In this document: positions 16,138 through 49,087 of the stretch, piece by piece | Layout of the letters: every line of letters begins with the position of its first letter | Numbering within the stretch: position 1 is the first letter of the stretch | Assembly: GCF_001403795.1 (NCBI RefSeq) | Contig: NZ_CXSU01000012.1 | Location: 936,477-999,154 of the forward strand | Reading direction: 5' to 3' | DNA: 62,678 bases | Origin: Jannaschia donghaensis | GTDB taxonomy: Bacteria > Pseudomonadota > Alphaproteobacteria > Rhodobacterales > Rhodobacteraceae | Notes under the pieces: generated by a model | Seen by the model: only the letters and a program-made list of their open reading frames with translations | Told to the model about the DNA's origin: nothing | Databases searched by the model: none | Position numbers and translations under genes: made by a program

Positions 16138-16695
16138 TCAGACTTGCATGATCTCGGCTTGTTTCTCTTCCAGCGCCTGATCGATCTTCTTGATATAGGC
16201 GTTGGTCATATCCTGGACCTCCGTCTCCCACATCTTGGCCTCGTCCTCGGCCAGGCCGTCGGCTTTCTTGATCTTGTCCATTCCGTCGCGTCGAATGTTG
16301 CGGATGGCGACGCGGGTGCCTTCGGCGTATTGCCCGGCGACTTTGGTCAGGTCACGGCGCCGTTCCTCGTTCAACTCGGGGATGGGCAGCATGATGATGG
16401 TGCCGTTCAGCTGCGGGTTGATGCCCAACCCGCTCTCGCGGATGGCCTTCTCGACCTTGCCGACCAGGCCCTTGTCCCAGACGTTGACGGTGACCATCCG
16501 CGGCTCGGGCACGTTGACGGTGCCGACCTGGTTGATCGGGGTGGGGCTGCCGTAGGCGTCGACCATCACCGGCTCCAACATCGAAGCGGAGGCGCGGCCC
16601 GTTCGCAGCGATCCGAATTCGGTGCGCAGGCTGGCCATCGCGCCATCCATCCGGCGTTCCAGGTCTTTGGTGTCGAGGTCGAATTCGTCGGCCAT
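16138..16695 (-). CDS. frr: ribosome recycling factor
   Basis: The 185-residue factor splits post-termination ribosomes together with EF-G. The L-shaped fold is recognisable from the N-terminal [20 protein letters not shown] helix, the [18 protein letters not shown] domain-II segment and the C-terminal helices ending [10 protein letters not shown]. The start at 16695 (MADEFDLD) fits the family; the longer upstream frame extends past the gene. It lies between pyrH and uppS, the standard order. Confidence 0.96.
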
Positions 16696-16786
16696 ATCTT
16701 GTCTCCCGCAGGCTTTGGCCGGGGTATATCCGGGGTTTGCTCGCAGGGAAAGGCGGTTGGAGTGCAGGCGTCGCGCAGGTGTGGCC

Positions 16787-17521: not shown

Positions 17522-17605
17522 CGTGCTGCCCCTCATGTCCGTTGCGGTGCCGGGTATGGCGGAATACTCCAAGACGGGCAACCGCGAAGGCCGGTTGCGG
17601 GGCAC

Positions 17606-18508
17606 ATGGGAAGAACACCGCGCAAGATGCTGGAAGCACTGGACAACCTGTTACCTCGAACCCCCGTCCTGATCGCCGGTCCGACGGCATCGGGCAAGTC
17701 GGCCCTGGCACTGAGCATCGCGGAGCGGTCGGGCGGCACGATCATCAACGCCGATGCGCTCCAGGTCTTCGCCGACTGGCGCAGCTTGACCGCGCGCCCA
17801 TCCCCGGCCGAGACGGCGCGCGCGCGCCACGCGCTGTATGGTCACGTCGCTTGGACCCGATCCTATTCCGTCGGTGATTGGCTGCGTGACGTGACACCGC
17901 TGCTGACCGGTGCGCGCCCAATCATCGTCGGCGGCACCGGGCTCTATTTCCGCGCGCTGACCGAGGGGCTGGCCGATATTCCGACAACGCCCCCCGACAT
18001 CCGGGCCGAAGCGACGGCGCGCTTGGAGGTCATCGGGCTTGACGCCCTGGCCGCGGAACTGACCGACGACGTGCGCGCCGACATCGATCTGGCCAACCCG
18101 ATGCGCGTGATGCGCGCATGGGAGGTGGCGCGCCATACCGGCCGATCCATCCGCGATTGGCAGGCCGACACCCCACCCCCATTGGTTCCGCTCACCACCG
18201 CCCTGCCCCTGCGCATCGACGCGCCCAAAGACTGGCTGGATCCACGGATCGAGAGCCGCTTCGACCAAATGCTCGACGATGGTGCCTTGGAGGAGGCGCG
18301 GGCCGTCCTGCCACGGTGGGACCCGACATTGAATGCGGCGCAGGCCATCGGCGCGCCCGAGCTGATCGCCCATCTGCGCGGCGAGATGACGTTGGACCAG
18401 GCCCGCGCCGCCGCCATCGTCGCCACCCGCCGCTATGCCAAGCGTCAGCGCACGTGGTTCCGCGCCCGCATGGCGGGATGGAGGGGTGTCGACGCGGCAA
18501 CGCTCTGA
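17606..18508 (+). CDS. miaA: tRNA dimethylallyltransferase
   Basis: The 300-residue enzyme transfers dimethylallyl to A37 of tRNAs reading UNN codons, so it too uses the isoprenoid pathway. It has the P-loop [14 protein letters not shown]; the usual DSMQ segment reads NADALQVF here, a variant seen in related bacteria as far as I recall. [15 protein letters not shown] and the zinc-finger-less C-terminus QTRRYAKRQ-like ([14 protein letters not shown]) are present. The start at 17606 is preferred; an ATG at 17627 is the alternative. It is divergent from pyrH. Confidence 0.93.
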
Positions 18509-18547
18509 CGCTTTGACAGGGGTGCGGCGCGCGTGGTCCGATGGCCC

Positions 18548-19390
18548 ATGTCACGCATTCGCCTTTTCGAGTCGCAAGGCCTGTCGGAAGCGGAGCGCCT
18601 GACCGGCCTTCGGCTGGAGATGGTCACCCCCCTGATCCGTCATGGGCGTTGGCGGCGGTCGGTGCCGCATGTCGAATCCCTGCCCGTCGTGATCTGGATG
18701 CAGCGCGGCCAGGGGCGCATCACGATACTGGGCCGAACACGCGGGTTCCAACCGTTGACCGCCATCTGCATTCCGCCCGGAACGCCCTTCGCCATCGAAC
18801 CCGGCGCGATGACCGAAGGCACGTTGTTGCGTCTTCCTGCCCTGTTCGAAGCCCCCCTGCCGGACGCCCCCCGGATCCTGCGCCTGTCCGACGTCTCAAC
18901 ACAGGCGGAGTTGTCGGGCCTGATCGACCGGCTGGGCCGGCATGGCGACCTGTCCAATCCTGCCGAAGGGCGCGGCGCATTGGGGCGCATCATTCTCGTC
19001 TCCGCGCTGATCGAACGGGTGGCCAGCGCGCAGCCCCCCACGCCCCTGCCCCGCGCCGCAGCGCTCGCCGCGCGGTTTACGCGCCGGGTGGAAGACCGCT
19101 TGGGCAGTGGCGCGACGCTGGAAGACATCGGCGCGGACCTTGGCGTGACACCGACCCATCTGACCCGAACCTTGCGCGGCACCGCCGGGATGACCGCCGC
19201 CGCTTATATGCAGGCGCGTCTGATGCACGAGGCACGCCGCCGATTGGCCGATAAAGACGACACTGCCGCGACCATTGCCACAGAGCTTGGCTACTCCTCC
19301 GCCGCCTATTTCTCACGCGCGTTTCGTCGCGAAACCGGCCACACACCGTCGGCCTTCCGCGCCGAAGCCCGCCGCGTCGCGCAGACCTAA
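18548..19390 (+). CDS. AraC-family transcriptional regulator
   Basis: The 280-residue regulator has an N-terminal cupin-like ligand domain (about 30-100, HVESLPVVIWMQRGQGRITI) and a C-terminal double helix-turn-helix (about 180-275, LEDIGADLGVTPTHLTRTLR and SSAAYFSRAFRRETGHTPSAF). It starts 40 bp after miaA and is followed by a DUF1206 gene on the same strand (56 bp gap), a possible target. The ATG at 18548 is chosen; a GTG five codons upstream is possible. Ligand unknown. Confidence 0.85.
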   Translation: MSRIRLFESQGLSEAERLTGLRLEMVTPLIRHGRWRRSVPHVESLPVVIWMQRGQGRITILGRTRGFQPLTAICIPPGTPFAIEPGAMTEGTLLRLPALFEAPLPDAPRILRLSDVSTQAELSGLIDRLGRHGDLSNPAEGRGALGRIILVSALIERVASAQPPTPLPRAAALAARFTRRVEDRLGSGATLEDIGADLGVTPTHLTRTLRGTAGMTAAAYMQARLMHEARRRLADKDDTAATIATELGYSSAAYFSRAFRRETGHTPSAFRAEARRVAQT

Positions 19391-19446
19391 GGGGAACCGC
19401 GCGGCCCTCCCACGGTTGACATGCCAACAACCGGAGAACCTGCATT

Positions 19447-20313
19447 ATGGCCGATCTTAAATGGACTATCCCCGTGATGCGGGCCGGCTATGCCGGTCGC
19501 GGCGTCACTTATCTGGCCGTCGCGGGCCTATCGCTTTGGGGAATCTGGCAAGGCGGCCAGGCCCAGGGCACGAGTTCCGCGCTCAAATCGCTGTCCGAAA
19601 GCACCTGGGGCGTCGCGGTGCTCTGGCTCATCGCGATCGGTCTCTTCGCCTATTGTATCTGGCGCGGTATCGACGCGGCGGAGGATCTCGAAGATGAGGG
19701 GTCCGATGCCAAGGGTATGGTGGCCCGTACCGGAATGATCGTCACGGGCCTGATCCACGGCGCGCTCGGCGCGCTCGCCCTGTCGCTCGCGCTCGGCCTC
19801 GGCCTGTCGTCGGGTGGTGGTGAAAGCGGCGGCGGCGGTGGTGGCATTTCCGGCATCGTCAGCACCGTTCTCGGCTGGCCGGGTGGTGCCTGGATCATCG
19901 GGTTGGGCGGGCTGGCGACGATCGGCGCTGGCATCTACTACGTGATAAAAGGCTGGAAAGCGAAGTATCGCCAGAAGCTGCGCGCCAACCACTTCACCCA
20001 GAACTGGGACTGGGCGTTGCGCGCCGGCGTCATCGCACAGGGGATCCTGATCGTCATCGTCGGATGCTTCTTAGTGGCCGCCGGCCTCAACGGCAACCCC
20101 GAGGAAGCCGGCGGCATGGGCAAGGCCTTCGAATGGCTCTACACCCAACCATTCGGCAAATTCCTCGTCATCGCGATCTGTGTCGGCCTGCTGGGCTTCG
20201 CGTTCTTCTGCTTCGTGAACGCCGCCTACCGCATCATCCCGAAGGTCGCCGGCGACGACATCGAAACGTTGGGCAAGAAGATGAAGGCCAAAGCGAAAAG
20301 CGCCGCGGCGTGA
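19447..20313 (+). CDS. DUF1206 integral membrane protein
   Basis: A 288-residue protein with about six membrane helices arranged as three similar pairs. Each pair opens with an Arg-Gly-x-x-(Tyr/Gly) type segment (MRAGYAGRGVTYLAVAG, VARTGMIVTGLIHGALGAL, LRAGVIAQGILIVIVG), which is the DUF1206 repeat pattern. A Gly/Ser-rich loop (about 120-135) connects repeats two and three. The C-terminus is Lys-rich and cytoplasmic. A clear ribosome-binding site (GGAGAA) lies upstream. Function unknown; some relatives are stress-induced. A hairpin at 20319-20341 follows directly. Confidence 0.85.
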   Translation: MADLKWTIPVMRAGYAGRGVTYLAVAGLSLWGIWQGGQAQGTSSALKSLSESTWGVAVLWLIAIGLFAYCIWRGIDAAEDLEDEGSDAKGMVARTGMIVTGLIHGALGALALSLALGLGLSSGGGESGGGGGGISGIVSTVLGWPGGAWIIGLGGLATIGAGIYYVIKGWKAKYRQKLRANHFTQNWDWALRAGVIAQGILIVIVGCFLVAAGLNGNPEEAGGMGKAFEWLYTQPFGKFLVIAICVGLLGFAFFCFVNAAYRIIPKVAGDDIETLGKKMKAKAKSAAA

Positions 20314-20318
20314 AAGAC

Positions 20319-20341
20319 GGGGCGGTGATTTACACCGCCCC
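20319..20341 (+). terminator. hairpin after the DUF1206 gene
   Basis: A 9 bp perfect stem GGGGCGGTG/CACCGCCCC with an ATTTA loop starts 6 bp after the stop codon. There is no U-tract after it, so it is either a Rho-assisted terminator or a 3'-end stabiliser. Confidence 0.5.
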
Positions 20342-20669
20342 GATCCCCACAATTATCGACAGATAATGCAGGTTACTTCGTGTTTGGTCGCTGCGTCAGC
20401 GCCGACGCGGCTGCGGTCTTTGCGGCTTAGCTGGACGTCGGATTGCGAATAACCTTCGATGTAACGCTGGCAGCTTTGGTGCCCGTAACTTCGCTATTGC
20501 GTCTTTTCAAAATCTCACCCCTTCCAAGGTTATCCCCAAGCTGTGAAACGCGGGGACAATTGGAAGGCACGCTTTCAGCTCACCCGCTATTATAACCAAA
20601 GAAGGTCATCGACCCTAAGGGGGCGAAATTGCTGACCTCTGATGTGCCAGATACTCAGGGCAAGGCTGG

Positions 20670-20693
20670 GGCGCGGTGGTAGGACACCGCGCC
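20670..20693 (-). terminator. hairpin after nrdJ
   Basis: A 9 bp perfect stem GGCGCGGTG/CACCGCGCC with a 6 nt loop begins 16 bp beyond the nrdJ stop on the minus strand. No U-tract follows. Confidence 0.5.
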
Positions 20694-20708
20694 TCAACCC
20701 AAGTTTCT

Positions 20709-23700
20709 TCAGCTACACCCAGACGTCCCGCCGCAGGTGTTGCACTTCATGCAGGTTCCGTTGCGCACAAGGGTGTAGTTGCCGCACTCGCCGCAGGCCT
20801 CGCCCTCATAACCCTGCATCTTGGCCTTGACCCGCGCATCCATGCCCGTCGCTTGCGCGGCGACCGTCGTGGTCGTCGTCGCGGCATAGGTGGCTTGCGT
20901 GCCCTCGGCAAAGCCCGTGGGCATCGCCGTCGATCCGGCCAGTTCGGCGGCGACCTGATCCATCCCACCGCGCAGTGCGACAAGATCCTGAGGGAGGCGT
21001 TTGCGCAGGTAGCCCGAGGATGTCACCGATTTGATGACCTCCAGCGACTTCGACGCCGCCGACTGACCGATGGGTGCGACGTTGCCGTCGTCCCCGGTCG
21101 GGGCCTCCGCCTCACCGATGCTGTCGAACGTGGTGCCCTGCGGCTTCACGTGGGCCAGGTCCTCGCGATCCAGATAGCTGACGGCGAGCTCCCGGAAGAT
21201 GTAGTCCAACACCGACGTGGCGTTCTTGATGCTGTCGTTGCCCTGCACCATGCCGGCCGGTTCGAACTTGGTGAAGGTGAAGGCATCCACGAACTCCTCC
21301 AGCGGCACGCCGTATTGCAGGCCGACGCTGATCGCGATGGCGAAGTTGTTCATCATCGCGCGGAAGCCGGCCCCCTCCTTGTGCATGTCGATGAAGATCT
21401 CGCCCAGGTTGCCGTCGGCATATTCGCCGGTGCGCAGGTACACCTTGTGCCCGCCGACGACGGCCTTCTGGGTATAACCCTTGCGCCGTTCCGGCAGCTT
21501 CTCTCGGGCGGCCTTCAGGTATTCCTTGACCACGATCTTCTCGACGATCTTTTCGGCCATGACGGTGGCCTTCTCGTGCGGCGTCCCCGTCTCCAGGATC
21601 TCGGCGGCGTCGTCGTCGTCTTCCACCAGCGACGCGGCCAGCGGCTGCGACAGCTTGGAGCCGTCACGATAGAGCGCGTTGGCCTTCACGCCCAGGGACC
21701 AGGACAGCTCATACGATGCCTTGCAGTCCTCGATCGTGGCCGAGTTCGGCATGTTGATCGTCTTGGAGATCGCGCCCGAGATGAACGATTGCGCGGCGGC
21801 CATCATGTGGATGTGGCTTTCCACCGACAGGAAGCGCTTGCCCTTCTTGCCGCAGGGGTTGGCGCAATCGAACACCACCAGATGCTCGTCCTTGAGCGCC
21901 GGGGCCCCTTCCAGCGTCATCGTTCCGCAAACGTGGTCGTTCGCGGCCTCGATGTCCTTCTTGGAATACCCAAGATGGCGCAGCAGATCGAAGGTCGGGT
22001 CGTTCAGCTTGGCCGCCGGAATGCCCAGCGTCTTGGTGCAGAACTCCTCGCCCAGGGTCCACTGGTTGAACACGAAGCGGATGTCGAAGGCCGACGGCAG
22101 CGCCGCTTCGACTTTCTTCAACTCCTCCTGACCGAAGCCATGCCCGATCAGCGAGGTGTGGTTGATGCCCGGCGCATTTCCAAGCGACCCGTGACCCACG
22201 GCGTAAGAGATGATCTCCCCGATCTGCGCCTCGCCGTAGCCCAACTTGCGCAGGGCAGCAGGCACCGACTGGTTGATGATCTTGAAGTAACCACCCCCGG
22301 CCAGTTTCTTGAACTTCACCAGCGCGAAGTCCGGCTCGATCCCCGTGGTGTCGCAATCCATGACCAGACCGATCGTGCCGGTGGGCGCGATAACGGTGGA
22401 TTGCGCGTTGCGGAAACCGTGCTTCTCACCCAGCGAAACCACGTCGTCCCAGATAGAGGCCGACAGGTCGGTCAGCGTCTTGTCGGGGCAGCCTTCGATG
22501 TCGAGCGCGACCGGCTTCACGGCCAGTTTCTCATAGCCGTCCGTCTTGCCCAACGCGGCCTGACGGTGGTTCCGCATCACGCGCTGCATGTGCTTGGCGT
22601 TCTTCTTGTAGCCCGGGAACGGCCCCAGCTCGCCGGCCATTTCGGCCGACGTGGCATAGGACACGCCGGTCATTACCGCCGTCAGGGCACCGCACAAAGC
22701 ACGACCCTCGCGGCTATCATACCCCAGTCCCATGTTCATCAGCAGACCGCCGATATTGGCATAGCCCAGACCCAGCGTGCGGAAATCATACGACCGCTGC
22801 GCGATTTCCTTGGACGGGAACTGCGCCATGGCGACCGAAATCTCCAACGTGATCGTCCAGAACCGCGCGGCGTGCATATAGCCGTCGTGATCGAAGCTGC
22901 CGTCCTCGTTCAGGAACTTCAGCAGGTTCATCGACGCCAGGTTACAGGCCGTGTCGTCCAGGAACATATATTCCGAACAGGGGTTCGACCCCCGGATCGC
23001 GCCGTCTTCGGGGCAGGTGTGCCAGTCGTTGACAGTGTCGTGAAACTGGATGCCCGGATCGGCGCAGGCCCAGGCCGCGTGGCCCACCTTGTCCCACAAA
23101 TCGCGCGCCTTGATGGTTTTGGCGACCTTGCCGTCACGGCGGTTCGTCAGCTCCCAATCGGCGTCTTTTTCGACGGCGTGCAGGAAGGCGTTGGTCACAC
23201 GGACCGAGTTGTTGGAGTTCTGGCCCGAGACCGAGTTGTAGGCCTCCGAATCCCAGTCGGTGTCATAGACCGGGAATTCGATGCTATCATAGCCCTGCTT
23301 GGCGTATTGCAGCACGCGCAGGATGTAGGCTTCGGGAATCATGTGCTTCTTGGCGGCACGGATCACGCCCTTGAGTGTGTCGTTCACTGCCGGGTCGGTG
23401 GCATCGGCCAGCGTTCCGTCCCAGGCGCGCACGGCGTCCATGACTTTCGTCAGCTGTGCCTGGTGCGCCTTGCTGCCGGCCACGATGGCCGCGACCTTCT
23501 GCTCCTCGATGACCTTCCAGTCGATGAAGGCTTCGATGTCGGGGTGATCCATATCCACGATGACCATCTTGGCCGCGCGCCGCGTGGTGCCGCCCGATTT
23601 GATGGCACCCGCCGCGCGGTCACCGATCTTCAGGAACCCCATCAGACCGGAGGACTTGCCCCCGCCCGAAAGCGATTCGCCCGCCCCGCGCAGGTGGCTG

Positions 23701-39656: not shown

Positions 39657-40787
39657 TCAGACCCGCGAGTTGGCCAGCGCCGCACCCTCAGACAAAGATC
39701 CCAACTTGGCGTAGGCGATCTCCGGGTCGACGGACCCGAAACCGGCGAAGGTGCCGAAGCCACAGTCGCTGCTGGCGATGACGCGGCCGGACCCGACGAT
39801 ACCCGCAAACCGGAGCAACCGTTCCGCCACGACTTCGGGGTGTTCGACGAAATTCGACGTGGTGTCGACGACCCCCGGCACCAGGATCTTTCGGTCGGGG
39901 ATTTCGGCTTTTCGGTCACGGAACACCTGCCATTCGTGGGCGTGTCGCGGGTTCGACGTCTCGAACAGCAGCTGGTCGGCGTTCACCCCGAGAAAGGTGG
40001 AAAACACCGTATCCATCGGGATATCGCACACATGCGGGCCTTCGTAGTTGCCCCAGCAGATGTGAACCCGAATGCGTGACGGATCAATGCCTTGCAGGGC
40101 GTTGTTAAGTGCCTCCACATGACTGGCGGCGATCTTGAGGAATTCCGCGTCGCTCAGATCCGCGAACAGCATGTGCCGCGACAGCGCCAGATCGGGGCAA
40201 TCCAACTGCAGGTAAAGACCGGCGTCCACGATGGTGCGGTATTCCGCGGCCATCGCATCCGACAGCGCCGCAAGGTATTCGTCACGGCTGCCATAGTGTT
40301 CGTTCTGCAGGAACAGGCTGATGACGCCGGGACTGGCCGCGTTCATGAAGCCTTGCGTCGCACCGTGATTGGCCATGGCGGCCTTCAGGTTGGCGATATC
40401 GGTCTTCAACTCGTCCTGCCCCTTGGACTTCACCGGGCCGGTGCACATGGGACGTGCGTATTTGGGCGTGCCGCCACCTTCTGCCAGACGTTTGAGAAAG
40501 CTGGGAAATTTCTTTAGATCCGCGGGGGCATTGCGCGGGGAGTCGCCCGAAAACCCGGTATAGCGATCCTTGACGTAGGTCGCATAGCTGATCTTCGACG
40601 TCTCCCCGTCCGACACGATGTCGATCCCGGCCTCCACCTGGCGGCGCACCACCTCGTCGCAGGCGGCGGTCATCTGGGCCGCGAATGCCTGTTCGTCGTA
40701 GGGCTCTTCTCGTTCGCGCGCGAAGATGAAATCGACGGTTTCCTGCGTGCGCGGAAGGCTTCCGACGTGGGTGACGCGAATGGTCAT
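39657..40787 (-). CDS. C-terminal-type MetE-like (cobalamin-independent) methyltransferase
   Basis: The 376-residue TIM-barrel enzyme corresponds to only the catalytic C-terminal half of cobalamin-independent methionine synthase (full MetE is about 750 residues). The zinc site is intact: His242-x-Cys244 (RVHICWGNY), Glu276 (LLFETSNP) and Cys342 (SSDCGFGTF). So it can activate a thiol for methyl transfer, but the folate-related N-terminal half is absent, and the methyl donor is therefore open. The ATG at 40787 has an AGAGGAG ribosome-binding site. It is 223 bp downstream of the bicupin gene on the same strand and is either the last gene of the LacI operon or a separate unit. Confidence 0.85.
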   Translation of the reverse strand: MTIRVTHVGSLPRTQETVDFIFAREREEPYDEQAFAAQMTAACDEVVRRQVEAGIDIVSDGETSKISYATYVKDRYTGFSGDSPRNAPADLKKFPSFLKRLAEGGGTPKYARPMCTGPVKSKGQDELKTDIANLKAAMANHGATQGFMNAASPGVISLFLQNEHYGSRDEYLAALSDAMAAEYRTIVDAGLYLQLDCPDLALSRHMLFADLSDAEFLKIAASHVEALNNALQGIDPSRIRVHICWGNYEGPHVCDIPMDTVFSTFLGVNADQLLFETSNPRHAHEWQVFRDRKAEIPDRKILVPGVVDTTSNFVEHPEVVAERLLRFAGIVGSGRVIASSDCGFGTFAGFGSVDPEIAYAKLGSLSEGAALANSRV

Positions 40788-41010
40788 GGGCGGCTCCTCT
40801 CGGGTTCGTGATGGCGTGCCATGCGGCGGTGCCAAGGGCAAGGCAGGGGACGTGCGAAGCGCCGGCATCCGTTCCGGTCGCATCAGATCAATGGCGTCGA
40901 ATGTGTCAGGAAGGACCGGGGTGATCGGCGTCCGCCAAATCGTACCCTAAGACCGCGAAACCGCTGGCCGCAGCGGGGCGTGCCTGCCCAGACCCCGCCA
41001 AAGGCCACGA

Positions 41011-41976
41011 TCACCCTAACCAGCTGGCCCCCGGTGCATCCCCTGTGGCGACGATGTGGTACAGGCTGGCGTCGCCCGTCATCGACGGCACGGCGCTGTG
41101 CATCAGATCGGCGGGAACCGACATCGTATCGCCGGGGGCCAGGACGTCCGATCCACCGTCCCACTCCACGCGCCAGTGGCCGCGCATCGGCATCAGGACA
41201 GAAGGCCGATCATGGCAGTGCCTTGTATCCGTCGCCGACGCCCGGGTGATCAGGTCGACCTCGAACCCCGGCTTGTCCCGTATGATGCCGGTCTCCCCGA
41301 TGACCTTGCAGGGTTTCGTCCCGGCCAATGCCACCATGTCGTTGTAGCGGCGCACGCCCCAACCCACGACCTGCATCGGCGTCATCTCGGGGTAGTTGGC
41401 CAACTCAATATCGGTCAGTTTGCGCATCGGCTTGACGCCTTCGGGCAAGGTCTGCCCCGCCTTCGTATCGTAAAGCGTGCCCGTTTCGGCCAGGACAAGA
41501 CCGTGATCGGCGGCATCCTCGATAACCTCCGGGGCCCAGATCACGCCGCCGCCCGCATCGTCGCCGCCCAGGATCGCCATGATCATCCCATAGTCGGTCC
41601 CGATATTCTCGAACCCTCGGAAAATGCCGGTCGGGATGTCGATGATGTCGCCTTCCTCCAACACAACCTCCCCGGCGGTGCCGCGGCGCCCCCAGAAGAA
41701 ACGCCAGCGTCCTTTGAGCACGAAGAACACCTCGGCTGTGCGGTGGGAATGCAGGGAGTTGCGGCATTTGGGCGGCTGGCCGGCCGCACCAATGTTAAAG
41801 CCGTGGGGGGTGGTGATGTGGACATGCTGATCGTGGCTTTCGGAAACGCCACCGCCGATGATGGTGAAATTCTCCTTCTGATCGCTGCCCGGCGTATGGG
41901 CGTCGATGAAGGCGGTCTTGCAGGGCTGGAGTTCGCCGTAGCGGACGATTTGCGGTGCATTGGTCCGGCCGTTCAT
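41011..41976 (-). CDS. bicupin protein of unknown substrate
   Basis: A 321-residue two-cupin protein. The N-terminal cupin has His76, His78 and Glu82 (HSHRTAEVFFVLKG) but lacks the usual fourth His in its second motif (IPTGIFRGFEN), so its metal site is incomplete. The C-terminal cupin has HCH (TDTRHCHDRPSVLMPM) and the second-motif His (PADLMHSAVP), and is the better catalytic candidate. Gentisate-dioxygenase-like proteins share this plan, but no substrate can be assigned. The start at 41976 is in the tight operon, 4 bp after the SRPBCC gene. Confidence 0.8.
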   Translation of the reverse strand: MNGRTNAPQIVRYGELQPCKTAFIDAHTPGSDQKENFTIIGGGVSESHDQHVHITTPHGFNIGAAGQPPKCRNSLHSHRTAEVFFVLKGRWRFFWGRRGTAGEVVLEEGDIIDIPTGIFRGFENIGTDYGMIMAILGGDDAGGGVIWAPEVIEDAADHGLVLAETGTLYDTKAGQTLPEGVKPMRKLTDIELANYPEMTPMQVVGWGVRRYNDMVALAGTKPCKVIGETGIIRDKPGFEVDLITRASATDTRHCHDRPSVLMPMRGHWRVEWDGGSDVLAPGDTMSVPADLMHSAVPSMTGDASLYHIVATGDAPGASWLG

Positions 41977-41980
41977 TGCG

Positions 41981-42439
41981 TCAATCCTCTTGTGAAGTTC
42001 GTTCAAGTACCCCGGCGAAGCGATCCAGCATGTCGTCCCAGCCCCGCGCCACGTCAGCCTCGGTCGGCTGTTCGCCCAAGACAACCATCTGACTGGTGCC
42101 GGTGAAGGTGCAGCCGTCGCCGTCGGGCGTGACGTCGAATACATTCTGCATGGTCATCGCGGGGTTTCCGCCGAAGACGCCCCAGCCGTGCACGACCGCC
42201 AGACGTCCGGGTTGCAAAATGCGGATGGTATCGAACATGCGACCCACCTCCGTGTCGCCCGGCGCGATCAGGATTTCGCCGCTCTCGCCCTCCTGTGTCG
42301 CCAGGGTGACGTGAGACATGCCGGACCCTTCGGGCGTCTCGAACTGCGCGCGCAAAGCCGGGTCGAGCCAGGCATCGAAAACACGGGACGGACGCTGGGC
42401 GAACCGACGACTGCGGCGGACGGTGAAGACCTGCATCAT
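41981..42439 (-). CDS. SRPBCC (AHSA1-like) domain protein
   Basis: A 152-residue START/Bet v1-like fold with the AHSA1 group pattern (RRFAQRPSRVFDAWLDPALRAQFE at the N-terminus, GWDDMLDRFAGVLE at the C-terminus). Such domains bind hydrophobic ligands; many are polyketide cyclases or chaperone-like. It overlaps the NTF2-fold gene (ATGA) and precedes the bicupin by 4 bp, so it is in the middle of the LacI operon. A second methionine directly after the first is an alternative start. Confidence 0.82.
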   Translation of the reverse strand: MMQVFTVRRSRRFAQRPSRVFDAWLDPALRAQFETPEGSGMSHVTLATQEGESGEILIAPGDTEVGRMFDTIRILQPGRLAVVHGWGVFGGNPAMTMQNVFDVTPDGDGCTFTGTSQMVVLGEQPTEADVARGWDDMLDRFAGVLERTSQED

Positions 42440-43419
42440 GGTGCCCCTAGATGGATCTGCTTCCAGATCGCCGTCTCGTCGTAGACGGTCCATTCACGGC
42501 GGATGGACCAGCCGTTCGGCCCCCAGGGGCCGAATTCGGCGTGGGTGATGCCCATGACATAGACCATCGCCCCCGTAGGTGTGCCAAAGCCGCCCCACCC
42601 CTTGTGCCGCCCCCACAGCGACCAGCGGACGGCGGCGCGGGGTGGCATCATCGGGTCGTCCCGACCAATAACGTGATCGACGGTGAACTCCGCATCCGGG
42701 AACGCGGCGCGCAGTTGCATCCAGAAACGATCGGCGGCCCCATGACTGTGCCCCGTCACACCGCCAGGATATTCCAGCTGCGCGGCGCGGTCGTAGTTTT
42801 CGCGAATAACGCGCAGGTCGGCCCCCATGATCCGGGTCAGCGTTTCGGCCAGTCGCACGCCCCATTCGTTGTCGTTACCGCGTCCGCCGTAGGGCCCGCT
42901 GCGATCGGTTTCCGGCGTCAGGGGTCGGGTCGCCGTGTCCCGCCCGCCTTCGCGTTCGATCAGGTCGGCGGCATAGGCTTCGGGTGTCCAGCCCAATTGC
43001 CGCACGATGGCCCCCTGATCGCGGATCAGCCATTCGTCGTCGATGGTGATGCCCGTCGCGTGGCAATCGGCCATGATGCGATAGGTCAGCTTCTTGCCCG
43101 TCGCCTTGCCATAGACGCCGTCGCCCAGATGCGTCGCGGTCGACAGCAGGCGATGCGACGATAGAAGACCGGTCTCGCTGCTTTCCCCGCTCCAGATCAC
43201 ATCTTCGCCCAACAGGGTTCGGTCGGGAAACTCCGCCAAGGTCGCCATGGTCGCGCCGATCACCGACTGGTTGCCGATCACCACGCTGGCCGGCGACCGC
43301 ACCACGATTTGCGGCGCGTAGTAATCGTGCAGGGTCGAGATGCCCCGATCCTCCCAGATCTCTTTGGTGATGCCGATGATGTAGTCGGGAAAATCGGACC
43401 AGCGGTCGTTGAAGGTCAT
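42436..43419 (-). CDS. tandem NTF2/SnoaL-like domain protein
   Basis: A 327-residue protein with two NTF2-fold cone domains: the first about 10-155 (starting FPDYIIGITKEIWEDRGISTL), the second about 190-325 (from RIMGADLRVIRENYDRAAQ). Each has the ligand-pocket Asp/His-type residues of the SnoaL ester-cyclase group (HDYYAPQIVVRSP and GRDDPMMPPRAAVRWSLWG). Two fused cyclase or dehydratase domains in a catabolic operon suggest isomerisation or dehydration of a ring or keto substrate. It overlaps the neighbours by 4 bp on both sides. Confidence 0.8.
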   Translation of the reverse strand: MTFNDRWSDFPDYIIGITKEIWEDRGISTLHDYYAPQIVVRSPASVVIGNQSVIGATMATLAEFPDRTLLGEDVIWSGESSETGLLSSHRLLSTATHLGDGVYGKATGKKLTYRIMADCHATGITIDDEWLIRDQGAIVRQLGWTPEAYAADLIEREGGRDTATRPLTPETDRSGPYGGRGNDNEWGVRLAETLTRIMGADLRVIRENYDRAAQLEYPGGVTGHSHGAADRFWMQLRAAFPDAEFTVDHVIGRDDPMMPPRAAVRWSLWGRHKGWGGFGTPTGAMVYVMGITHAEFGPWGPNGWSIRREWTVYDETAIWKQIHLGAP

Positions 43420-44435
43420 GTCACGTATCCTTGGGGTATCCGGGCCGAGGATCGCACGACCAGGGGGCCGTCGATTTCGATTCGGCGGGCGGCGCGGGTC
43501 GGGTTTTCCAATTGTGCGAACAATTCTTCCACGGTGGCCTGTACCATGCGGCGGGTCGGTTGGCGCAGCGTGGTCAGATCATAGGCGGGCCAGGCGGCCA
43601 TTGGTACGTCGTCGTACCCCAGGATGCTGACATCGCCCGGCACGTCCAGTTTCAGATCGAAGCGCAGCACATCCATCACCGCCAGCGCCATGTGGTCGTT
43701 CGCCACGAAGATCGCATCGGGCGGATCGGGCCTGTCCATCAGGCGGCGTGCGGCTTCGCAGGCGGTGGCACGGTCGTATTTGCCATCCTCGATCGCGTGG
43801 ACGTCGTGACCCGCCTCTGCCAGCGCGGCGCGGAATCCTTCCAGCCGGTCCTGGCTGGTAGACGCATCGCGAAAGCCGCTGATGTGCGCCAAACGTTTGT
43901 GGCCGCCCGCCAGCAGGAACTCCGCCGCCTTGCGCCCGCCCGCCAGATTGTCGGAGGTGACGGCGGACAACCCCGATCCCGGTATGCCACGATTGAACAG
44001 GACCACCGGAATCCCGGCGGCCGCACAGCGTTTCGTCAGCTTGCCAGACAGGTTGATGGACGCGGTGATGATGCCGTCGACCTGATAATCCAGCAGCTCG
44101 GAGATCACCCGGTCTGTGTCGATACCATGCCGCCCGGTCGTGAAGATCAGCAGGTGATAGCCCTGTTTTTGCAGCGCGGTCGACAGTTTCTCGATCGCAT
44201 CTGGATAGAACGGATTGTCCAGATACGCGACGACCAACCCGATGATCCGCGTGCGCCCCGTGATCAGACCACGGGCCAGCGCATTGGGCCGGTAGCCCAG
44301 GGTGTCGGCAGCGACGCGCACCCGTTCGGCCATGTCGGGGCTGACGGATGCCCCCTTGGTGAAGACGCGGCTGACGGCGGACTGGCTGACCCCCGCCAGC
44401 TTGGCCACATCCTGAGAGGTGATCTTGCGCGCCAT
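43416..44435 (-). CDS. LacI-family transcriptional regulator
   Basis: The 339-residue repressor has an N-terminal helix-turn-helix (ITSQDVAKLAGVSQSAVSRV) and hinge (YRPNALARGLI), and a periplasmic-binding-like ligand domain (about 60-335). Its operator is probably the TGCATA-type palindrome found upstream of both its own operon (45212-45227) and the HisD-like gene (47282-47297). It sits between the SDR and NTF2 genes inside the operon (gap 4 bp, overlap 4 bp), so it is autoregulated. The start at 44435 directly precedes the HTH. Confidence 0.92.
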   Translation of the reverse strand: MARKITSQDVAKLAGVSQSAVSRVFTKGASVSPDMAERVRVAADTLGYRPNALARGLITGRTRIIGLVVAYLDNPFYPDAIEKLSTALQKQGYHLLIFTTGRHGIDTDRVISELLDYQVDGIITASINLSGKLTKRCAAAGIPVVLFNRGIPGSGLSAVTSDNLAGGRKAAEFLLAGGHKRLAHISGFRDASTSQDRLEGFRAALAEAGHDVHAIEDGKYDRATACEAARRLMDRPDPPDAIFVANDHMALAVMDVLRFDLKLDVPGDVSILGYDDVPMAAWPAYDLTTLRQPTRRMVQATVEELFAQLENPTRAARRIEIDGPLVVRSSARIPQGYVT

Positions 44436-44439
44436 CCGC

Positions 44440-45195
44440 CTACCCCGCCGTCCAGCCGCCATCGACCAGCAGATGCGTGCCGGTGACCATCGCCGACGCA
44501 TCGCTGGCCAGGAACACGACGGCGCCCATCAGATCCTCCACCTCAGCCACGCGGGGCAGCTTGATCTTCTCGTCGATCCAGGCGCGGCGCATGGGGTCGT
44601 TGAACGTCGCTTCGGTCAGGGGCGTGCGCACGAAGGTCGGGCAGATCGTGTTGACGCGGATATTCATCGGCCCCCATTCGATCGCCATGGCCTTGGTCAT
44701 GCCTTCGACCCCGTGCTTGGTCGCGCAATAAACGGCGCGGTCGATGCCGCCGACGTGGCCCATCTGGCTGCTGATCTGAAGGATCGAACCACCGTTCGTC
44801 ATGCGTCGGGCCACCCCCTGCGCCATGAAATACGCGGCCCGCAGATTTAGTCCGGTCACGACGTCGAAATCCTGCGGCGTGGTGTCGAGCGATGGGCCGT
44901 GCCGGGCGACGCCCGCGGAATTGCACAGCACGTCGAACGGGGCCTGCGCGTCCAGAAAGGCGGTCAGCGCGTCCAGATCAGCCACGTCCAGCGCTTGCCC
45001 TTCGGCGGAAAACCCGGCTTGTCTCAGGTCCGCCACGGCCTGTTCGACCCCGTCGACCCCGCGCGCGACGATGACGACATGCGCCCCCGCCTCGGCAAGG
45101 GCCGTCGCGCAAGCCAAGCCGATCCCGCGCGATCCGCCGGGGACGAAGGCACGACGTCCGTCGAGGCGAAAGCTGGGGGTCCGGGGCAACGGCAT
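44440..45195 (-). CDS. short-chain dehydrogenase/reductase, first gene of the LacI operon
   Basis: A 251-residue SDR with the cofactor motif GGSRGIGLA, the NSAG strand (LCNSAGVARHGP), the catalytic Ser and Tyr-x3-Lys (ISSQMGHVGG, then VYCATKHGVEG) and the C-terminal VDGGWTAG. The usual Thr before the Gly-rich loop is Pro here (FVPGGSRGIG). Substrate unknown. The start at 45195 has a GGAG ribosome-binding site, and the LacI operator is 17-32 bp upstream of it. Confidence 0.9.
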   Translation of the reverse strand: MPLPRTPSFRLDGRRAFVPGGSRGIGLACATALAEAGAHVVIVARGVDGVEQAVADLRQAGFSAEGQALDVADLDALTAFLDAQAPFDVLCNSAGVARHGPSLDTTPQDFDVVTGLNLRAAYFMAQGVARRMTNGGSILQISSQMGHVGGIDRAVYCATKHGVEGMTKAMAIEWGPMNIRVNTICPTFVRTPLTEATFNDPMRRAWIDEKIKLPRVAEVEDLMGAVVFLASDASAMVTGTHLLVDGGWTAG

Positions 45196-45211
45196 GACGA
45201 TCTCCGATGGC

Positions 45212-45227
45212 GTGCATAGGTATGCAA
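45212..45227. promoter_or_regulatory. LacI-type operator copy 1 (GTGCATAGGTATGCAA)
   Basis: It contains the perfect inverted repeat TGCATA-GG-TATGCA (45213-45226). It shares 13 of 16 positions with copy 2 at 47282-47297. It lies 17 bp upstream of the SDR start, covering the probable -10 region of the LacI operon promoter. Confidence 0.75.
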
Positions 45228-45314
45228 ACACCCGTTGGTCCAATCGATCAAGGCGTTTTTATATGAACCGATCCGGGCCCACGCGCATTTGTCCCACAGC
45301 CACGGAGAGCGCGC

Positions 45315-45887
45315 ATGACCAAACCGACCGAAATCGTCGAAGGATTGGAAGAGGCGGTCGAAGGGGATGACAAAGTCACCGTCGGCGAAGTCAACGAGGA
45401 GTTGGGCAATCGCGGGATCGGCGCGCTTCTGATGGTGCCCGCGTCGCTCGAACTGACGCCGGTCGGCGGGATCCCCGGTGTCCCAACCCTTCTAGCCGTG
45501 ATCGTCGCGCTGGTCGCGGCACAGATCCTCTTTGGTCGCGATCGCATCTGGCTGCCGGATGTCCTGTCGCGTCGCAGCATCGAACAGGACAAGTTCACCA
45601 CCGCCGTCGGCAAGTTGCGCCCGGCCGCCCGTTGGGCGGACGACCATCTGGGCCGGCATATTCCGCTTCTGGTCGACCCGCCGGCACCGCGCATCGTGTC
45701 GGTCGCGATTCTTCTGCTTTGCGCCACGGTGCCGGGGCTGGAATTGGTGCCCTTCGCCTCGTCGATCCCGATGGGCACGATCGTGCTTTTCGGACTGGCG
45801 CTCGTGACGCGGGACGGTCGGGTGATGGCGCTGGCCTGGGCGGCCTTCGCCGCTGCCTGCTTGGGTGTCTGGGCGCTCTGGCCCTAG
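45315..45887 (+). CDS. ExoD-family exopolysaccharide synthesis protein
   Basis: A 190-residue membrane protein with ExoD features: an N-terminal helical cytosolic part (VTVGEVNEELGNRGIGALLM) and hydrophobic segments (GVPTLLAVIVALVAAQILF; IVSVAILLLCATVPGLELVP; WAAFAAACLGVWAL). ExoD affects exopolysaccharide production and stress tolerance in rhizobia; its molecular role is unclear. It is inserted, on the opposite strand, between the two halves of the LacI regulon. A GGAGA ribosome-binding site precedes it. Confidence 0.85.
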   Translation: MTKPTEIVEGLEEAVEGDDKVTVGEVNEELGNRGIGALLMVPASLELTPVGGIPGVPTLLAVIVALVAAQILFGRDRIWLPDVLSRRSIEQDKFTTAVGKLRPAARWADDHLGRHIPLLVDPPAPRIVSVAILLLCATVPGLELVPFASSIPMGTIVLFGLALVTRDGRVMALAWAAFAAACLGVWALWP

Positions 45888-45888
45888 G

Positions 45889-47214
45889 TCACTCCGCCGC
45901 GTCGCGGTACGGTGCCCCTTCGCCGTAGGGCACATTAATGCCGCCGTAACGCCGGACACGTACATTGCACTGCTCGGCGTGGCCCACGAACCCTTCCAGC
46001 ATGCAAAGCCGCGAGCCGTATTCCCCGATCAGCGTCGCCGCCTCGTCCGTCGTGATCTTCTGATAGCTGTGGGTCTTGAGGAACTTACCCACCCAAAGCC
46101 CGCCGGTATAGCGCCCGGCCTTCCTCGTGGGCAGGGTGTGGTTGGTGCCGATCACCTTGTCGCCGTTGGCCACATTGGTGCGCGGCCCCAGGAACAATGC
46201 GCCGTAGCTGTGCATATGCTCCAGATACCAATCGTCACGGTCGGTCATCACCTGCACATGCTCGGACGCGATGTGGTTGGCCTGCGCCAGCATTTCGTCG
46301 TGGCCGTCGCACAGGATGATCTCGCCGTAATCCTCCCAGGATTTGCGGGCCGTGTCGGCAGTGGGCAGAATGGTCAGGATACGCTCGATCTCGGCCGTGG
46401 TATCGTCGGCCAGCTTGCGCGACGTGGTCAGCAGGACAGCCGGGGAATTATATCCATGCTCGGCCTGGCCCAGCAGATCGGTGGCCACCAATTCCCCGTC
46501 GACGGTATCGTCGGCGATGACCATCGTCTCCGTCGGACCGGCGAAGAGGTCGATCCCGACCCGTCCGTAAAGTTGCCGCTTGGCCTCTGCCACATAAGCG
46601 TTTCCGGGGCCGACCAGCATATCGACCGGCGTGATGGTCTGGGTGCCGATGGCCATGGCACCGACGGCCTGTATCCCGCCCATGACATAGATTTCATGCG
46701 CCCCGCCCAAGTGCATCGCGGCGATGACGGCGGCATTGGGCCGGCCTTTGAATGGTGGGGTGCAGGCGATGATGCGCGGCACGCCCGCAACGGACGCGGT
46801 GGCGACCGACATATGCGCGCTGGCGACCATCGGAAACTTGCCGCCGGGGACATAGCAGCCGACCGATTGGACCGGGATATTCTTGTGGCCCAGGATGACG
46901 CCGGGCATCGTCTCCACCTCGATATCCAGCATCGAGTCGCGCTGTGCCTGGGCGAAATTGCGGACCTGCTCCTGCGCGAACTTGATGTCCGCCAACTCCC
47001 TGTCGGACAGCTCCGCGACCAGGGCGTCGATCTGCGATTGGGTCAGGCGGAAGCTGTCGGGCGTGTAGCCATCGAATTTCTCCGACAGGTCGCGAACGGC
47101 CGCATCGCCCCGTTCCTCGATGTCGCGCAGGATCGCCTCGACCGAGGTGCGGACCTTGGCGTCGTCTTCGGCGCGCTCGGTCTCGGATTTCGCTGTTTTC
47201 AGATGCTTGGCCAT
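45889..47214 (-). CDS. HisD-family dehydrogenase, HpsN-like (not biosynthetic HisD)
   Basis: A 441-residue zinc- and NAD-dependent four-electron alcohol dehydrogenase of the histidinol dehydrogenase family. Catalytic residues are kept: zinc ligands Gln250, His253 (GQAEHG), Asp352 and His412 (EGFVGHAEQ), and the acid-base pair Glu318-His319 (ASEHVQVM). By general resemblance it is closer to the sulfopropanediol dehydrogenase HpsN of roseobacters than to biosynthetic HisD, so it likely oxidises a small diol or hydroxy compound to an acid. It lies apart from any his genes, and a LacI-type operator shared with the SDR operon is 68 bp upstream. The exact substrate is unproven. Confidence 0.85.
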
Positions 47215-47281
47215 GTCTGCCTCCGGATCCTGACGATTGGGTCTGCGGCGGGGCCGCCGGTTCGGATCAATAGAGCCGCGT

Positions 47282-47297
47282 TTGCATACGTTTGCAA
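47282..47297. promoter_or_regulatory. LacI-type operator copy 2 (TTGCATACGTTTGCAA)
   Basis: Inverted repeat TTGCA-N6-TGCAA, 68 bp upstream of the HisD-like start, overlapping a possible -35 (TTGCAA read on the minus strand, with TCTATT 17 bp on). It agrees with the operator at 45212-45227 in 13 of 16 positions. Confidence 0.75.
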
Positions 47298-47305
47298 GAA
47301 CGGCG

Positions 47306-48298
47306 TCAGAGGGTGCGCAGCCAATCGGCCATCGCCTGGATCGCGGCGGCTGTGCCCGCCGGGCTGAGGATGTCGCCGGCGATGACGTGGAAATAGGGAT
47401 CGTCCCCTTCCGGTACCTTCACCTCGACGATCGTGGCCTCCCCACCCCAGGTTTCCGCCACCGCCCGCGTCGCCGATGCGTCCACGACGCGGTCCTGCGG
47501 GGAATACCAGAAAAGCGCAGGAACATCGGGTCGCGCAAAGTCCAACGCGGCGGCGTGGTCGATGGTGGCCTGCATCGGCAGAAGCGCGATGGTCGGGTAC
47601 CGCGTCGTCCAATGCCGCGCGTGGCGCGCGTTGACGGCTTCGAAGCTGCGGCTTTCGCCCGCCACCAAGGGGGCCCAGTACCGGGCCGCGGGCAGCGACA
47701 GCAATTTGGCCGCCGGGTTGGCCACGCGAAAATTCGGCGAGATGAAGATCAGCCCCGCCACGTCCGTCATCAGGTCCGCAAGGTCAGGATCGGCGGCCAG
47801 GATCGCGGCCAACGTCCCGCCGGTGGAGGTCCCGATGACGACGACGCAGTCGCCCAGCTTCAACGCCACCGCCATCGCTTCGGCCATGTCCTCGATCCAG
47901 TCGCCCGCCGTCGCCGTCGCCATGGCGGCCCCGTCCCGGCCGTGGCCCGTCAGCCGGGTGTAGAAGACATTCGCCCCCAGATCCGCGCCCAGCCGATCGA
48001 CCAAGGGGCGTGTTTCCCAAAGGGTTGCCGAAAAGCCGTGAACATAGACGAGGACCAGATCGGTGCGCGTGCCCGGCGCCCCGGCCCAGACGACGCGCTT
48101 GGCGGCTTCGGGCGCGACATCCGGAACCTGACTTTCGCGGTCGGCCAGCCAACCGTCGATGTCGTCCGGTACAGCCGATGCATCGAAGGAAACATCGGTG
48201 TCCACCGGCTCGTAGGGTCCGAAAGTCCATAGCGCGGCCCCAACGACCACGACGATGCCAAACAGCCAGCCGAGACCCCTGAAAACTCTGCGCATCAC
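47306..48298 (-). CDS. membrane-anchored alpha/beta hydrolase
   Basis: A 330-residue protein with an N-terminal membrane anchor ([19 protein letters not shown]) followed by an alpha/beta hydrolase domain (from about 80: [19 protein letters not shown]). It has the nucleophile elbow GTSTGGTL, an acid in SPQDRVVD and a His in PYFHVIAG. It looks like a lysophospholipase or monoacylglycerol-lipase-type esterase facing the periplasm. It ends 8 bp before the operator of the HisD-like gene and is probably a separate unit upstream. Confidence 0.8.
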
Positions 48299-48343
48299 AT
48301 CCTCCCCAACGAACGCGATGAAGGACCCGAGTGGCGGATCAGG

Positions 48344-49087
48344 TCAAGGTTTCACGCGTTTGAGCACCTCGACGACACTGCGTCGGATAAGGGCAAGATC
48401 GTCCTTTTCCGAAAACCGATGATCCGCGCCGCGGACGAGTGTCAGGCGAATGTCGTCGCACGCCACGTGGTTCAGCAGACGCAGGGCGGTCGTGGTCGTG
48501 ACCGACGCATCCTCGGTCCCCTGCACCATGCGGACGGGAAACGGCAGGGGCAGCGGCGCACGCAGGACCAGACGATCGCGCCCTTCCTCGATCAGGCGCC
48601 GCGTGATGACATAAGGCTCGCCATAGTCGGACGGCACCGCCGTTTGCCCCTGCTCCATCACTTCGGTCCGCCGGTCGTCGGTGAAATCGGTCCAGAACCC
48701 ATCCTCGGTGAAGTCGGGCGCCGCAGCGATCGTGACAAGGCCCGCGACGCGGTCGGGATGGTCCCGCGCGATCAGCAGCGCGATCCAGCCGCCCATGGAC
48801 GACCCGATCAGAACCTGCGGCCCGGTCGTCGCGGCGGCGATCACCGCCATTGCGTCCTCGAACCAGTCGCCGATGCAGCCATCGGTGAAATCACCGCCCG
48901 ATTTGCCATGTCCCGAATAATCCAGGCGCAGAAAGGCGCGGCCCTGCTTGATGGCCCAGCGTTCCAGCTCCAGCGCCTTGGTTCCTTCCATGTCGGATTT
49001 GAACCCGCCCAGAAAGACGAGGCCCGGTCCCTGTCCCGGCGTGACGTGATAGGCCAGATCGTTGCCTGCGCGCGTGATGGTGTCCAT
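48344..49087 (-). CDS. alpha/beta hydrolase, ABHD10-like
   Basis: A 247-residue cytoplasmic hydrolase with the elbow GSSMGGWIALL, an acid in VQGTEDASVT and a His in RGADHRFSEKDD. It resembles the ABHD10/palmitoyl-thioesterase-like bacterial group (FLGGFKSDMEGTKALELE near the start). Substrate unknown. It is divergent from the ArsR-SRPBCC gene, and the two ArsR operators at 49140-49187 are 53-100 bp upstream of its start, so it may be controlled by that regulator. Confidence 0.8.
   Translation of the reverse strand: MDTITRAGNDLAYHVTPGQGPGLVFLGGFKSDMEGTKALELERWAIKQGRAFLRLDYSGHGKSGGDFTDGCIGDWFEDAMAVIAAATTGPQVLIGSSMGGWIALLIARDHPDRVAGLVTIAAAPDFTEDGFWTDFTDDRRTEVMEQGQTAVPSDYGEPYVITRRLIEEGRDRLVLRAPLPLPFPVRMVQGTEDASVTTTTALRLLNHVACDDIRLTLVRGADHRFSEKDDLALIRRSVVEVLKRVKP

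Follow-up and report, generated by a model that had tools for sequence, protein, structure and literature searches.

A conserved LacI-type regulon, scattered in Jannaschia donghaensis, that may serve the breakdown of small methoxylated ring compounds

The window analyzed here is the whole stretch of 62,678 nucleotides from Jannaschia donghaensis (contig NZ_CXSU01000012.1, positions 936,477 to 999,154), and our subject within it is a group of minus-strand genes around a gene for a LacI-family regulator, together with 2 palindromes (Table 1). The operon is transcribed in the order short-chain dehydrogenase/reductase (SDR), LacI, tandem SnoaL, SRPBCC, bicupin, and then MetE-like, with 4-base overlaps between the LacI and SnoaL genes and between the SnoaL and SRPBCC genes, and with 223 bases from the bicupin end to the MetE-like start. 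An initial annotation made from the sequence alone had placed these genes and both palindromes correctly; all the open reading frames (ORFs) are intact, and the Pfam matches agree with the names given. It had put the HisD-family gene, hisD1, elsewhere on the same strand. The strand is right, but the gene is the first one upstream of the SDR gene on that strand, and what was written as 2 NTF2 genes is one protein with 2 such domains. Between the SDR gene and hisD1 the plus strand carries an ExoD-like gene (45315-45887), which we rejected as a part of the pathway, as it is on the opposite strand and is absent from the recurrent neighborhood clusters of the 41 loci described below.

Table 1. Genes and operator-like palindromes of the window (positions are those of the window)
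Feature	Position	Strand	Basis
SDR dehydrogenase	44440-45195	-	ORF intact; Pfam PF13561
LacI-family regulator, proposed regulator of the regulon	43416-44435	-	ORF intact; Pfam PF00356/PF13377
Tandem SnoaL/NTF2-fold protein (snoD)	42436-43419	-	ORF intact; Pfam PF07366
SRPBCC/AHSA1-like protein	41981-42439	-	ORF intact; Pfam PF08327
Bicupin, proposed ring-cleaving oxygenase	41011-41976	-	ORF intact; AlphaFold model, fold neighbors, invariant residues
MetE-like core methyltransferase, 376 aa, catalytic domain only	39657-40787	-	PF01717 above cut-off
HisD-family zinc alcohol dehydrogenase (HisD1), probably not HpsN	45889-47214	-	PF00815
Operator-like palindrome TGCATAGGTATGCA ahead of the SDR-LacI-snoD operon	45213-45226		Perfect pattern match
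Operator-like palindrome TGCATACGTTTGCA ahead of hisD1	47283-47296		Perfect pattern match

The palindrome TGCATAGGTATGCA precedes the start of the SDR gene by 18 bases, and TGCATACGTTTGCA precedes that of hisD1 by 69. In the 3.48 Mb genome, TGCAWASSTWTGCA is matched perfectly at exactly 2 sites, those at the 2 window promoters. With one mismatch allowed there are 5 further sites in the genome; the reversed pattern gives 3. A scan of the window only, at up to 2 mismatches, found 4 matches to TGCAWASSTWTGCA against a shuffle mean of 1.0, with 4 of 100 shuffles also reaching 4, so the palindrome evidence rests on the perfect matches and on the comparative data.

Three of the 5 one-mismatch sites flank homologs of genes belonging to the cluster in relatives. 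The site at C12:567006 is about 150 bases before a gene for an ATP-binding cassette (ABC) binding protein (C12:567165, 44% identity to its Ruegeria counterpart), between that gene and a divergent SnoaL gene, and ABC permeases accompany the binding protein. The one at C5:668633 is between a divergent SnoaL-type gene, with 36% identity to Ruegeria snoC, and an ABC ATPase gene, with 74% identity to that of Ruegeria, and the one at C12:1373799 precedes a SnoaL gene with 58% identity to Ruegeria snoC. Overall, 5 of the 7 sites mark genes that are clustered in relatives, and the other 2, C11:494965 (within an ORF) and C11:838765, have no visible link to the pathway. Judged by sequence, the predicted regulon is thus spread over at least 4 places that keep the palindrome, namely the window, the ABC binding protein with its permeases, the ABC ATPase, and the lone SnoaL gene. 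Because operator sites mark homologs of cluster genes, we infer that the cluster has been split in this genome and is held together by its operator; it seems to have been broken up while the operator was retained. The earlier statement that no transporter is present, so that uptake must be encoded elsewhere, holds, since the transporter genes are found elsewhere with operator-like sites.

A LacI protein, a palindrome at the target promoters, and co-located catabolic and transport genes are what one looks for in a LacI catabolic regulon, and all are found. With the shared palindrome and a conserved gene set, one LacI-type regulon almost certainly joins the operon and the HisD-like gene, as had been proposed, and the best explanation of the window is that it is the remnant center of a conserved regulon of this type. 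Known LacI-controlled sugar regulons (PMC4052901) share the LacI regulator, the palindromic operator, the sugar-type ABC transporter, and an operator before the regulator's own operon, and the main text of that survey has no histidinol, cupin, or polyketide term. The difference is in the enzymes, as those of the window do not belong to any sugar pathway that we know of.

A search with the tandem SnoaL protein gave matches in 60 of 149 genomes of the family, taken one per genus and including the Jannaschia genome. Neighborhoods of up to 20 kb around one match each were fetched from 40 of the 59 other matching genomes, one of these stretches being ended by a contig end, and clustering was run on 41 loci, which are the 40 fetched plus the window. 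By this clustering, 33 of the loci contain LacI, 32 a HisD-like gene, 30 a second type of SnoaL, 27 a MetE-like gene, and 26 the bicupin. Subunits of an ABC transporter are present in 22 to 26, and an alpha/beta hydrolase and an RraA-family protein in 16 and 15, respectively. By tblastn over the same 41 loci, the SDR was found in 30, the bicupin in 28, and the MetE-like protein in 27, while the SRPBCC protein was found in 2, counting the window. The SRPBCC protein had been taken for a part of the pathway, and it does lie inside the operon, but on that count it is not conserved and we have dropped it as a regulon member. A pyruvate-type aldolase and an alpha/beta hydrolase are 2 other recurrent parts, which the initial annotation had no way of seeing.

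A profile scan of named genomes with the bicupin gave at least 529 relatives, of which the best 80 were taken; these are nearly all Rhodobacterales, with Jannaschia nearest. This set was chosen by the bicupin itself, and it shares some genomes with the 40-locus set. Its gene counts come from ORF picking, by which genes under antisense ORFs can escape, and are lower bounds: LacI 77/80, snoD 75/80, HisD1 72/80, MetE-like 64/80, snoC 63/80, permeases 58 and 53, and SDR and RraA 53 each. In the same set the binding protein is present in at least 49, the ATPase in 48, the hydrolase in 40, and the amidase and a second HisD in 6 each. The initial annotation had proposed looking in relatives for conservation of the set and for a nearby conserved transporter, and both are there, the gene set co-occurring in most of the 80 loci along with ABC subunits. 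Core sets are also found on named plasmids of Ruegeria conchae, Roseibium, Martelella, Sinorhizobium medicae, Pantoea, Deinococcus, Priestia, and Novosphingobium. Across the class, the bicupin was found in 24 of 240 sampled genomes. Fourteen loci were examined from 14 of the 23 other class genomes having it, and 12 of those hold more cluster genes, with 2 (L212 and L213) having cupins only; some of the 12 lie in assemblies whose size is 1.3 to 2.8 Mb, with incomplete ones among them.

The operator follows the gene set. Allowing up to one mismatch, 37 of the 80 named loci contain 61 sites in all, while the reversed control gives 2. Most of the 61 are at binding-protein or ATPase promoters and others before hisD1, SnoaL genes, or the second HisD, and a few fall inside unrelated ORFs. 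Shuffling the half-sites gave a mean of 3.35 (maximum 30) for this set. The 40 other-genus loci have 39 sites in 22 loci, for which half-site shuffles gave a mean of 1.2 (maximum 10). The motif is also present in the clusters of S. medicae, Roseibium, Martelella, Pantoea, and Deinococcus. A conserved gene set with a conserved 14-base operator-like palindrome is thus evident at the level of sequence.

The nearest solved relatives of HisD1 by phmmer are sulfopropanediol 3-dehydrogenase, the best Protein Data Bank (PDB) match, and then the histidinol dehydrogenases. The alignment to HpsN (8v35/8wwe) keeps E318/H319, D352/K353, Q248/H251, and H411, the catalytic and zinc residues. In HpsN, His126 recognizes the sulfonate and sets that enzyme apart, according to PMC11382572. 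The aligned position of HisD1 is Met129, by a hand count on the alignment with a one-residue offset. A motif search covered 18 HisD proteins, in which the position is Met, Ile, or Leu in 12 others from the clusters and other contexts, and 4 of 16 were unreadable by the search. In the sequence comparison, 2 HisD proteins, Sinorhizobium HisD1 and Roseibium HisD2, had guessed or cut coordinates and are represented by their longest piece free of stops, which makes their lengths incomplete. With Met129 in place of that His, a dehydrogenase for 2,3-dihydroxypropane-1-sulfonate (DHPS) is unlikely, and the HpsN-like substrate that had been suggested is not supported. Compared with the Cupriavidus DHPS 3-dehydrogenase HpsN (PDB 8v35; PMC11382572), then, HisD1 shares the family and the aligned zinc and catalytic residues, and differs in the sulfonate-recognizing His and in its operon partners. 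In all likelihood HisD1 is a working zinc alcohol dehydrogenase whose substrate has no sulfonate, and by analogy a four-electron alcohol oxidation is expected of it. Another HisD homolog of the same genome, at C12:1362951-1364174, carries the HpsN-type His, and a true DHPS dehydrogenase may lie there.

The HisD1 subfamily, at 76-83% identity, is also found in the 5 other plasmid contexts examined, Rhizobium pRL8, Pararhizobium, Sulfitobacter, Aminobacter, and Ancylobacter. An SDR directly adjoins it in 3 of the 5, and the 12-14 kb flanks carry neither an annotated cupin nor an annotated SnoaL. Because the subfamily recurs in this way, HisD1 probably acts on a small common molecule rather than on the intact special substrate.

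The bicupin has an AlphaFold model with a predicted local distance difference test (pLDDT) score of 81.5, and its fold neighbors (Foldseek/VIA) include quercetin, salicylate, and gentisate dioxygenases. Residues H76, H78, E82, and R120 are invariant, and a metal site of 2 His and one Glu is possible. Cupin motif 2 usually supplies a further metal-ligand His. Relative to a bicupin dioxygenase of the quercetin or gentisate type, the model predicts 2 cupin domains of that fold, and the motif 2 His is absent. The tandem SnoaL model is better, with pLDDT 94.5 and 2 NTF2-type domains, and it is similar to polyketide cyclases and to Lsd19 and MonBI/MonBII, which are epoxide hydrolases of two domains, although the VIA rows for this protein mostly span one domain.

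The MetE-like protein scores 92.8 bits to its best NCBIfam methionine synthase model, for which the cut-off is 406, and it is well short of the cut-off for every other model of that kind. Its HxC, E, and C motifs, which we take to be the zinc ligands, are conserved in 27 sequences. Thus it has the PF01717 catalytic domain and zinc-type motifs of cobalamin-independent methionine synthase, and fails the curated equivalog score. The nearest relatives outside the cluster, among plasmids, have 50-53% identity and come from 6 sphingomonad loci (2 of them from one species), every one of which has desA/ligM-like and metF genes nearby. A methyl-transfer step in the pathway is plausible, and to that extent the removal of a methyl group proposed earlier survives; for the proposed order of oxidation, then cyclization or dehydration, then demethylation, we found no evidence.

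The aldolase partner found in relatives is either an RraA protein with the RD motif or an HpcH protein nearest to HpaI and GarL, both families that include pyruvate-type aldolases. Ruegeria RraA scores 28.5 and 29.4 bits to the LigK and PRK09262 models, whose cut-offs are 304.5 and 179. The models closest to the SDR and aldolase proteins are those for sugar-acid enzymes, KduD and GarL among them, though no score reaches its cut-off, and the solved relatives of the ABC binding protein are sugar-binding proteins. This genome has a second, paralogous cluster at C11:599709-607076, next to a GntR-type gene. It comprises an ABC transporter, RraA, HpcH, a hydrolase, and a bicupin of the second type, and no LacI operator match was found in that 20 kb. 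The idea that RraA and HpcH are plain substitutes for one another is weakened, since that second cluster holds both.

Mycosporines, mycosporine-like amino acids, and gadusols are the main natural ultraviolet sunscreens, the mycosporine-type ones being made by algae and fungi. Gadusol is a 2-methoxy-cyclohexenone having a tertiary carbinol with CH2OH and a neighboring CHOH, and mycosporine-glutaminol has an amide and an amino alcohol. We propose, at somewhat under an even chance, that the regulon serves to take up and fully degrade one class of small ring compounds that are sugar-like and methoxylated, for which mycosporines and gadusols are the best guess. The chemistry and the order of its steps are our inference, fitted after the gene data were in hand. 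The LacI protein would bind the TTGCATACGTATGCAA operator sites and repress all units until the substrate arrives. The tandem SnoaL proteins, with an amidase and a second HisD in some lineages, would remove amino substituents, and the latter 2 would suit the amide and amino alcohol of mycosporine-glutaminol. The bicupin would oxidatively open the ring beside the methoxy carbon, after which the alpha/beta hydrolase would cleave the resulting methyl ester, or else the MetE-like protein would take off the methyl group. An RraA- or HpcH-type aldolase would then split the open chain to pyruvate and a C4 acid.

For gadusol, cleavage next to the methoxy carbon, methyl ester hydrolysis, and retro-aldol splitting would give pyruvate and 3-oxo-tetronate, the substrate of OtnK, and for 4-deoxygadusol the same steps would give pyruvate and 4-hydroxy-3-oxobutanoate. 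The SDR would reduce the latter to 3,4-dihydroxybutanoate, which HisD1 would oxidize to malate; 3,4-dihydroxybutanoate is the carboxylate analog of DHPS, and a HisD without the sulfonate-binding His could take it. In Vibrio and Salinivibrio, otn genes would replace SDR and HisD as the C4 module. An earlier form, in which HisD1 oxidizes the ring hydroxymethyl before cleavage and the aldolase acts on 4-carboxy-4-hydroxy-2-oxoadipate (CHA), was dropped because HisD1 and SDR recur in unrelated contexts and otn replaces them in Vibrio and Salinivibrio. Other substrates considered from recall, namely homarine, pantothenate, ascorbate, betaine lipids, vitamin B6, chloramphenicol, and apiose, had no matching enzymes.

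The otn connection is seen in Vibrio pelagius and Salinivibrio, where cupin, HpcH, and hydrolase genes continue directly from otnK-otnC-otnI, with neither HisD nor SDR annotated there. By curated cut-off, the Vibrio Otn proteins score as the kinase, decarboxylase, and isomerase of 3-oxo-tetronate. The 3-oxo-tetronate pathway (OtnK/OtnC/OtnI; NF043035, NF043034, NF043033) is thus contiguous with the cupin-HpcH-hydrolase core in those 2, whereas most cluster loci have HisD1, usually with SDR, instead. Primorskyibacter flagellatus (L093), the 1 of 134 cluster loci with otnK nearby, has otnK and otnC, the second cupin type, and another SnoaL gene beside a complete main cluster. At 16187-20713 of that locus is an opposite-strand sister set of second-type cupin, SnoaL, OtnK, OtnC, and the start of an HpcH gene. 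The present genome has an otnK equivalog at another place. A Vibrio pelagius plasmid (L081, 1456-17134) has the ABC transporter and 4 full-length SnoaL-type genes beside sarcosine oxidase and purU, and that stretch is without HisD, cupin, or aldolase.

A number of observations weigh against this proposal. As matches to the bicupin, oxalate decarboxylases and seed globulins tie with the dioxygenases within one Z unit, and the invariant Arg120 stands at the usual place of the cupin motif 2 His. The MetE-like gene is missing in 16 of the 80 bicupin loci, by the lower-bound counts, and from the cluster annotations of Klebsiella, Pantoea, Deinococcus, Roseibium, and Martelella; 3 more distant actinobacterial or haloarchaeal MetE-like loci are without desA or metF. 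HisD1 is not specific to the pathway, given its 5 other contexts. The sole RraA of this genome sits, with HpcH and hydrolase, in the paralogous cluster lacking the operator, the Priestia cluster stretch has no operator match, and in the Vibrio stretch the single match does not lie at the cluster. Support for the otn link comes from 3 loci, those of Vibrio, Salinivibrio, and Primorskyibacter. In Pantoea and Klebsiella the second cupin type goes with HisD1/SDR and not with otn, and Roseicyclus (L164) has Ldh_2 and a PfkB protein in place of HisD1/SDR, so the division between deoxygadusol and gadusol is not clean. The amidase and second HisD occur together in Pantoea, Roseibium, Martelella, and Novosphingobium, and in 6 of the best 80 of at least 529 loci, but their presence in both marine and land strains does not track a fungal source, and S. 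medicae has the amidase without the second HisD in its stretch.

A rival reading keeps the same scattered regulon and core logic of ring or lactone opening, aldolase cleavage to pyruvate, and C4 oxidation, and changes the substrate to an unusual methylated or branched sugar acid, a cyclitol, or another polyol natural product; we give it not quite an even chance. The LacI regulator, the sugar-type ABC binding protein, the nearness of the SDR and aldolase to sugar-acid models, and the otn or PfkB neighbors all suit such a substrate, as does the recurrence of HisD1, often with an SDR, among other partners. By itself it leaves unexplained the MetE-like gene with its relatives in methoxyaromatic clusters, the abundance of tandem SnoaL genes, and the amidase with the second HisD. 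Our estimate is that a different sugar-acid-like or methoxylated substrate is about as likely as a mycosporine. That recurrence of HisD1 could also mean that there is no shared pathway, the operon, MetE, and HisD genes being chance neighbors and the palindromes those of an unrelated repressor, which is hardly credible when the set occurs together in the majority of 80 loci and in different families and phyla, with the palindrome kept at its promoters.

A methoxylated aromatic pathway of a syringate-like or gentisate-like kind would make the bicupin a gentisate/salicylate-type dioxygenase and RraA a CHA aldolase, and it draws on the bicupin fold neighbors and on the MetE-like relatives beside desA, metF, and ligAB, and in Croceicoccus also ligK. 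Those sphingomonad clusters for tetrahydrofolate-dependent O-demethylation and protocatechuate 4,5-cleavage (desA/ligM, metF, ligAB, ligK) have, besides the MetE-like relatives, an NTF2 gene beside the MetE-like gene, and Croceicoccus has an RraA-family aldolase. But with Croceicoccus proteins as queries, and with ring hydroxylases not among the things searched for, the 120 cluster loci gave no DesA, MetF, PurU, FolD, LigK, or LigB homolog at E = 1e-15, and they have bicupin, HisD, and tandem SnoaL instead. Also, the LigK/PRK09262 scores are far below cut-off, and alcohol dehydrogenases with a sugar-type ABC transporter are a poor fit to an aromatic acid, so we consider this improbable. Sulfonate catabolism, with HpsN acting as the dehydrogenase on DHPS, has the best PDB match of HisD1 to recommend it and is very improbable, as the defining His126 is replaced in HisD1 and in the 12 readable others, the C12:1362951 gene of the same genome does carry it, and no C-S lyase is annotated in the named clusters.

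Returning to mycosporines and gadusols, Vibrio harveyi has been suggested to hydrolyze amino acid substituents off compounds of the mycosporine type (PMC3083659), so bacterial attack on them is not new, although among the papers covered the genes were not found in print. In the portion of the open-licence literature covered, we found no paper on mycosporine catabolic genes and, among full texts, none on a HisD-SnoaL-cupin gene cluster. The initial annotation knew of no described pathway with this set, and within that same coverage we likewise found none; as far as that literature reaches, the regulon is undescribed. More tentatively still than the substrate guess, this may be the first genetic route by which mycosporines, mycosporine-like amino acids, and gadusols are broken down completely, with bicupin ring cleavage, a pyruvate aldolase, swappable C4 modules (SDR and HisD, or OtnKCI), and one LacI operator. 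It would be common to marine roseobacters, small-genome alphaproteobacteria, Deinococcus, enterobacteria, and rhizobia of plants and soil, and Priestia would have a related set.

Because the gene set is widespread, the pathway probably consumes a common natural compound, and current annotation hides it behind labels like ester cyclase, methionine synthase, and histidinol dehydrogenase. To our knowledge there are no known breakdown genes for mycosporine-type sunscreens, and if the substrate is a mycosporine or gadusol, these would be marker genes for the fate of sunscreen compounds of the ocean and of leaf surfaces. The genome is also a clean case of a dispersed gene cluster whose regulon stays joined by its operator sequence.

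Directly upstream of hisD1, the window has 2 alpha/beta hydrolases on the minus strand (47306-49087), which may or may not replace the missing pathway hydrolase; the second of these 2 types is found in 7 of the 41 loci, whose maps carry no ABC transporter genes. Two metagenome-assembled genomes, one labeled Flavobacteriia and one Roseobacter (L140 and L142), have apparently the same contig, by its name, length, and gene map, and the Flavobacteriia label is probably wrong. A plasmid of Klebsiella michiganensis from a fishpond culture, typed as conjugative and IncFIB, has a minimal core of LacI, HisD, SDR, a major facilitator superfamily transporter, hydrolase, HpcH, and cupin.

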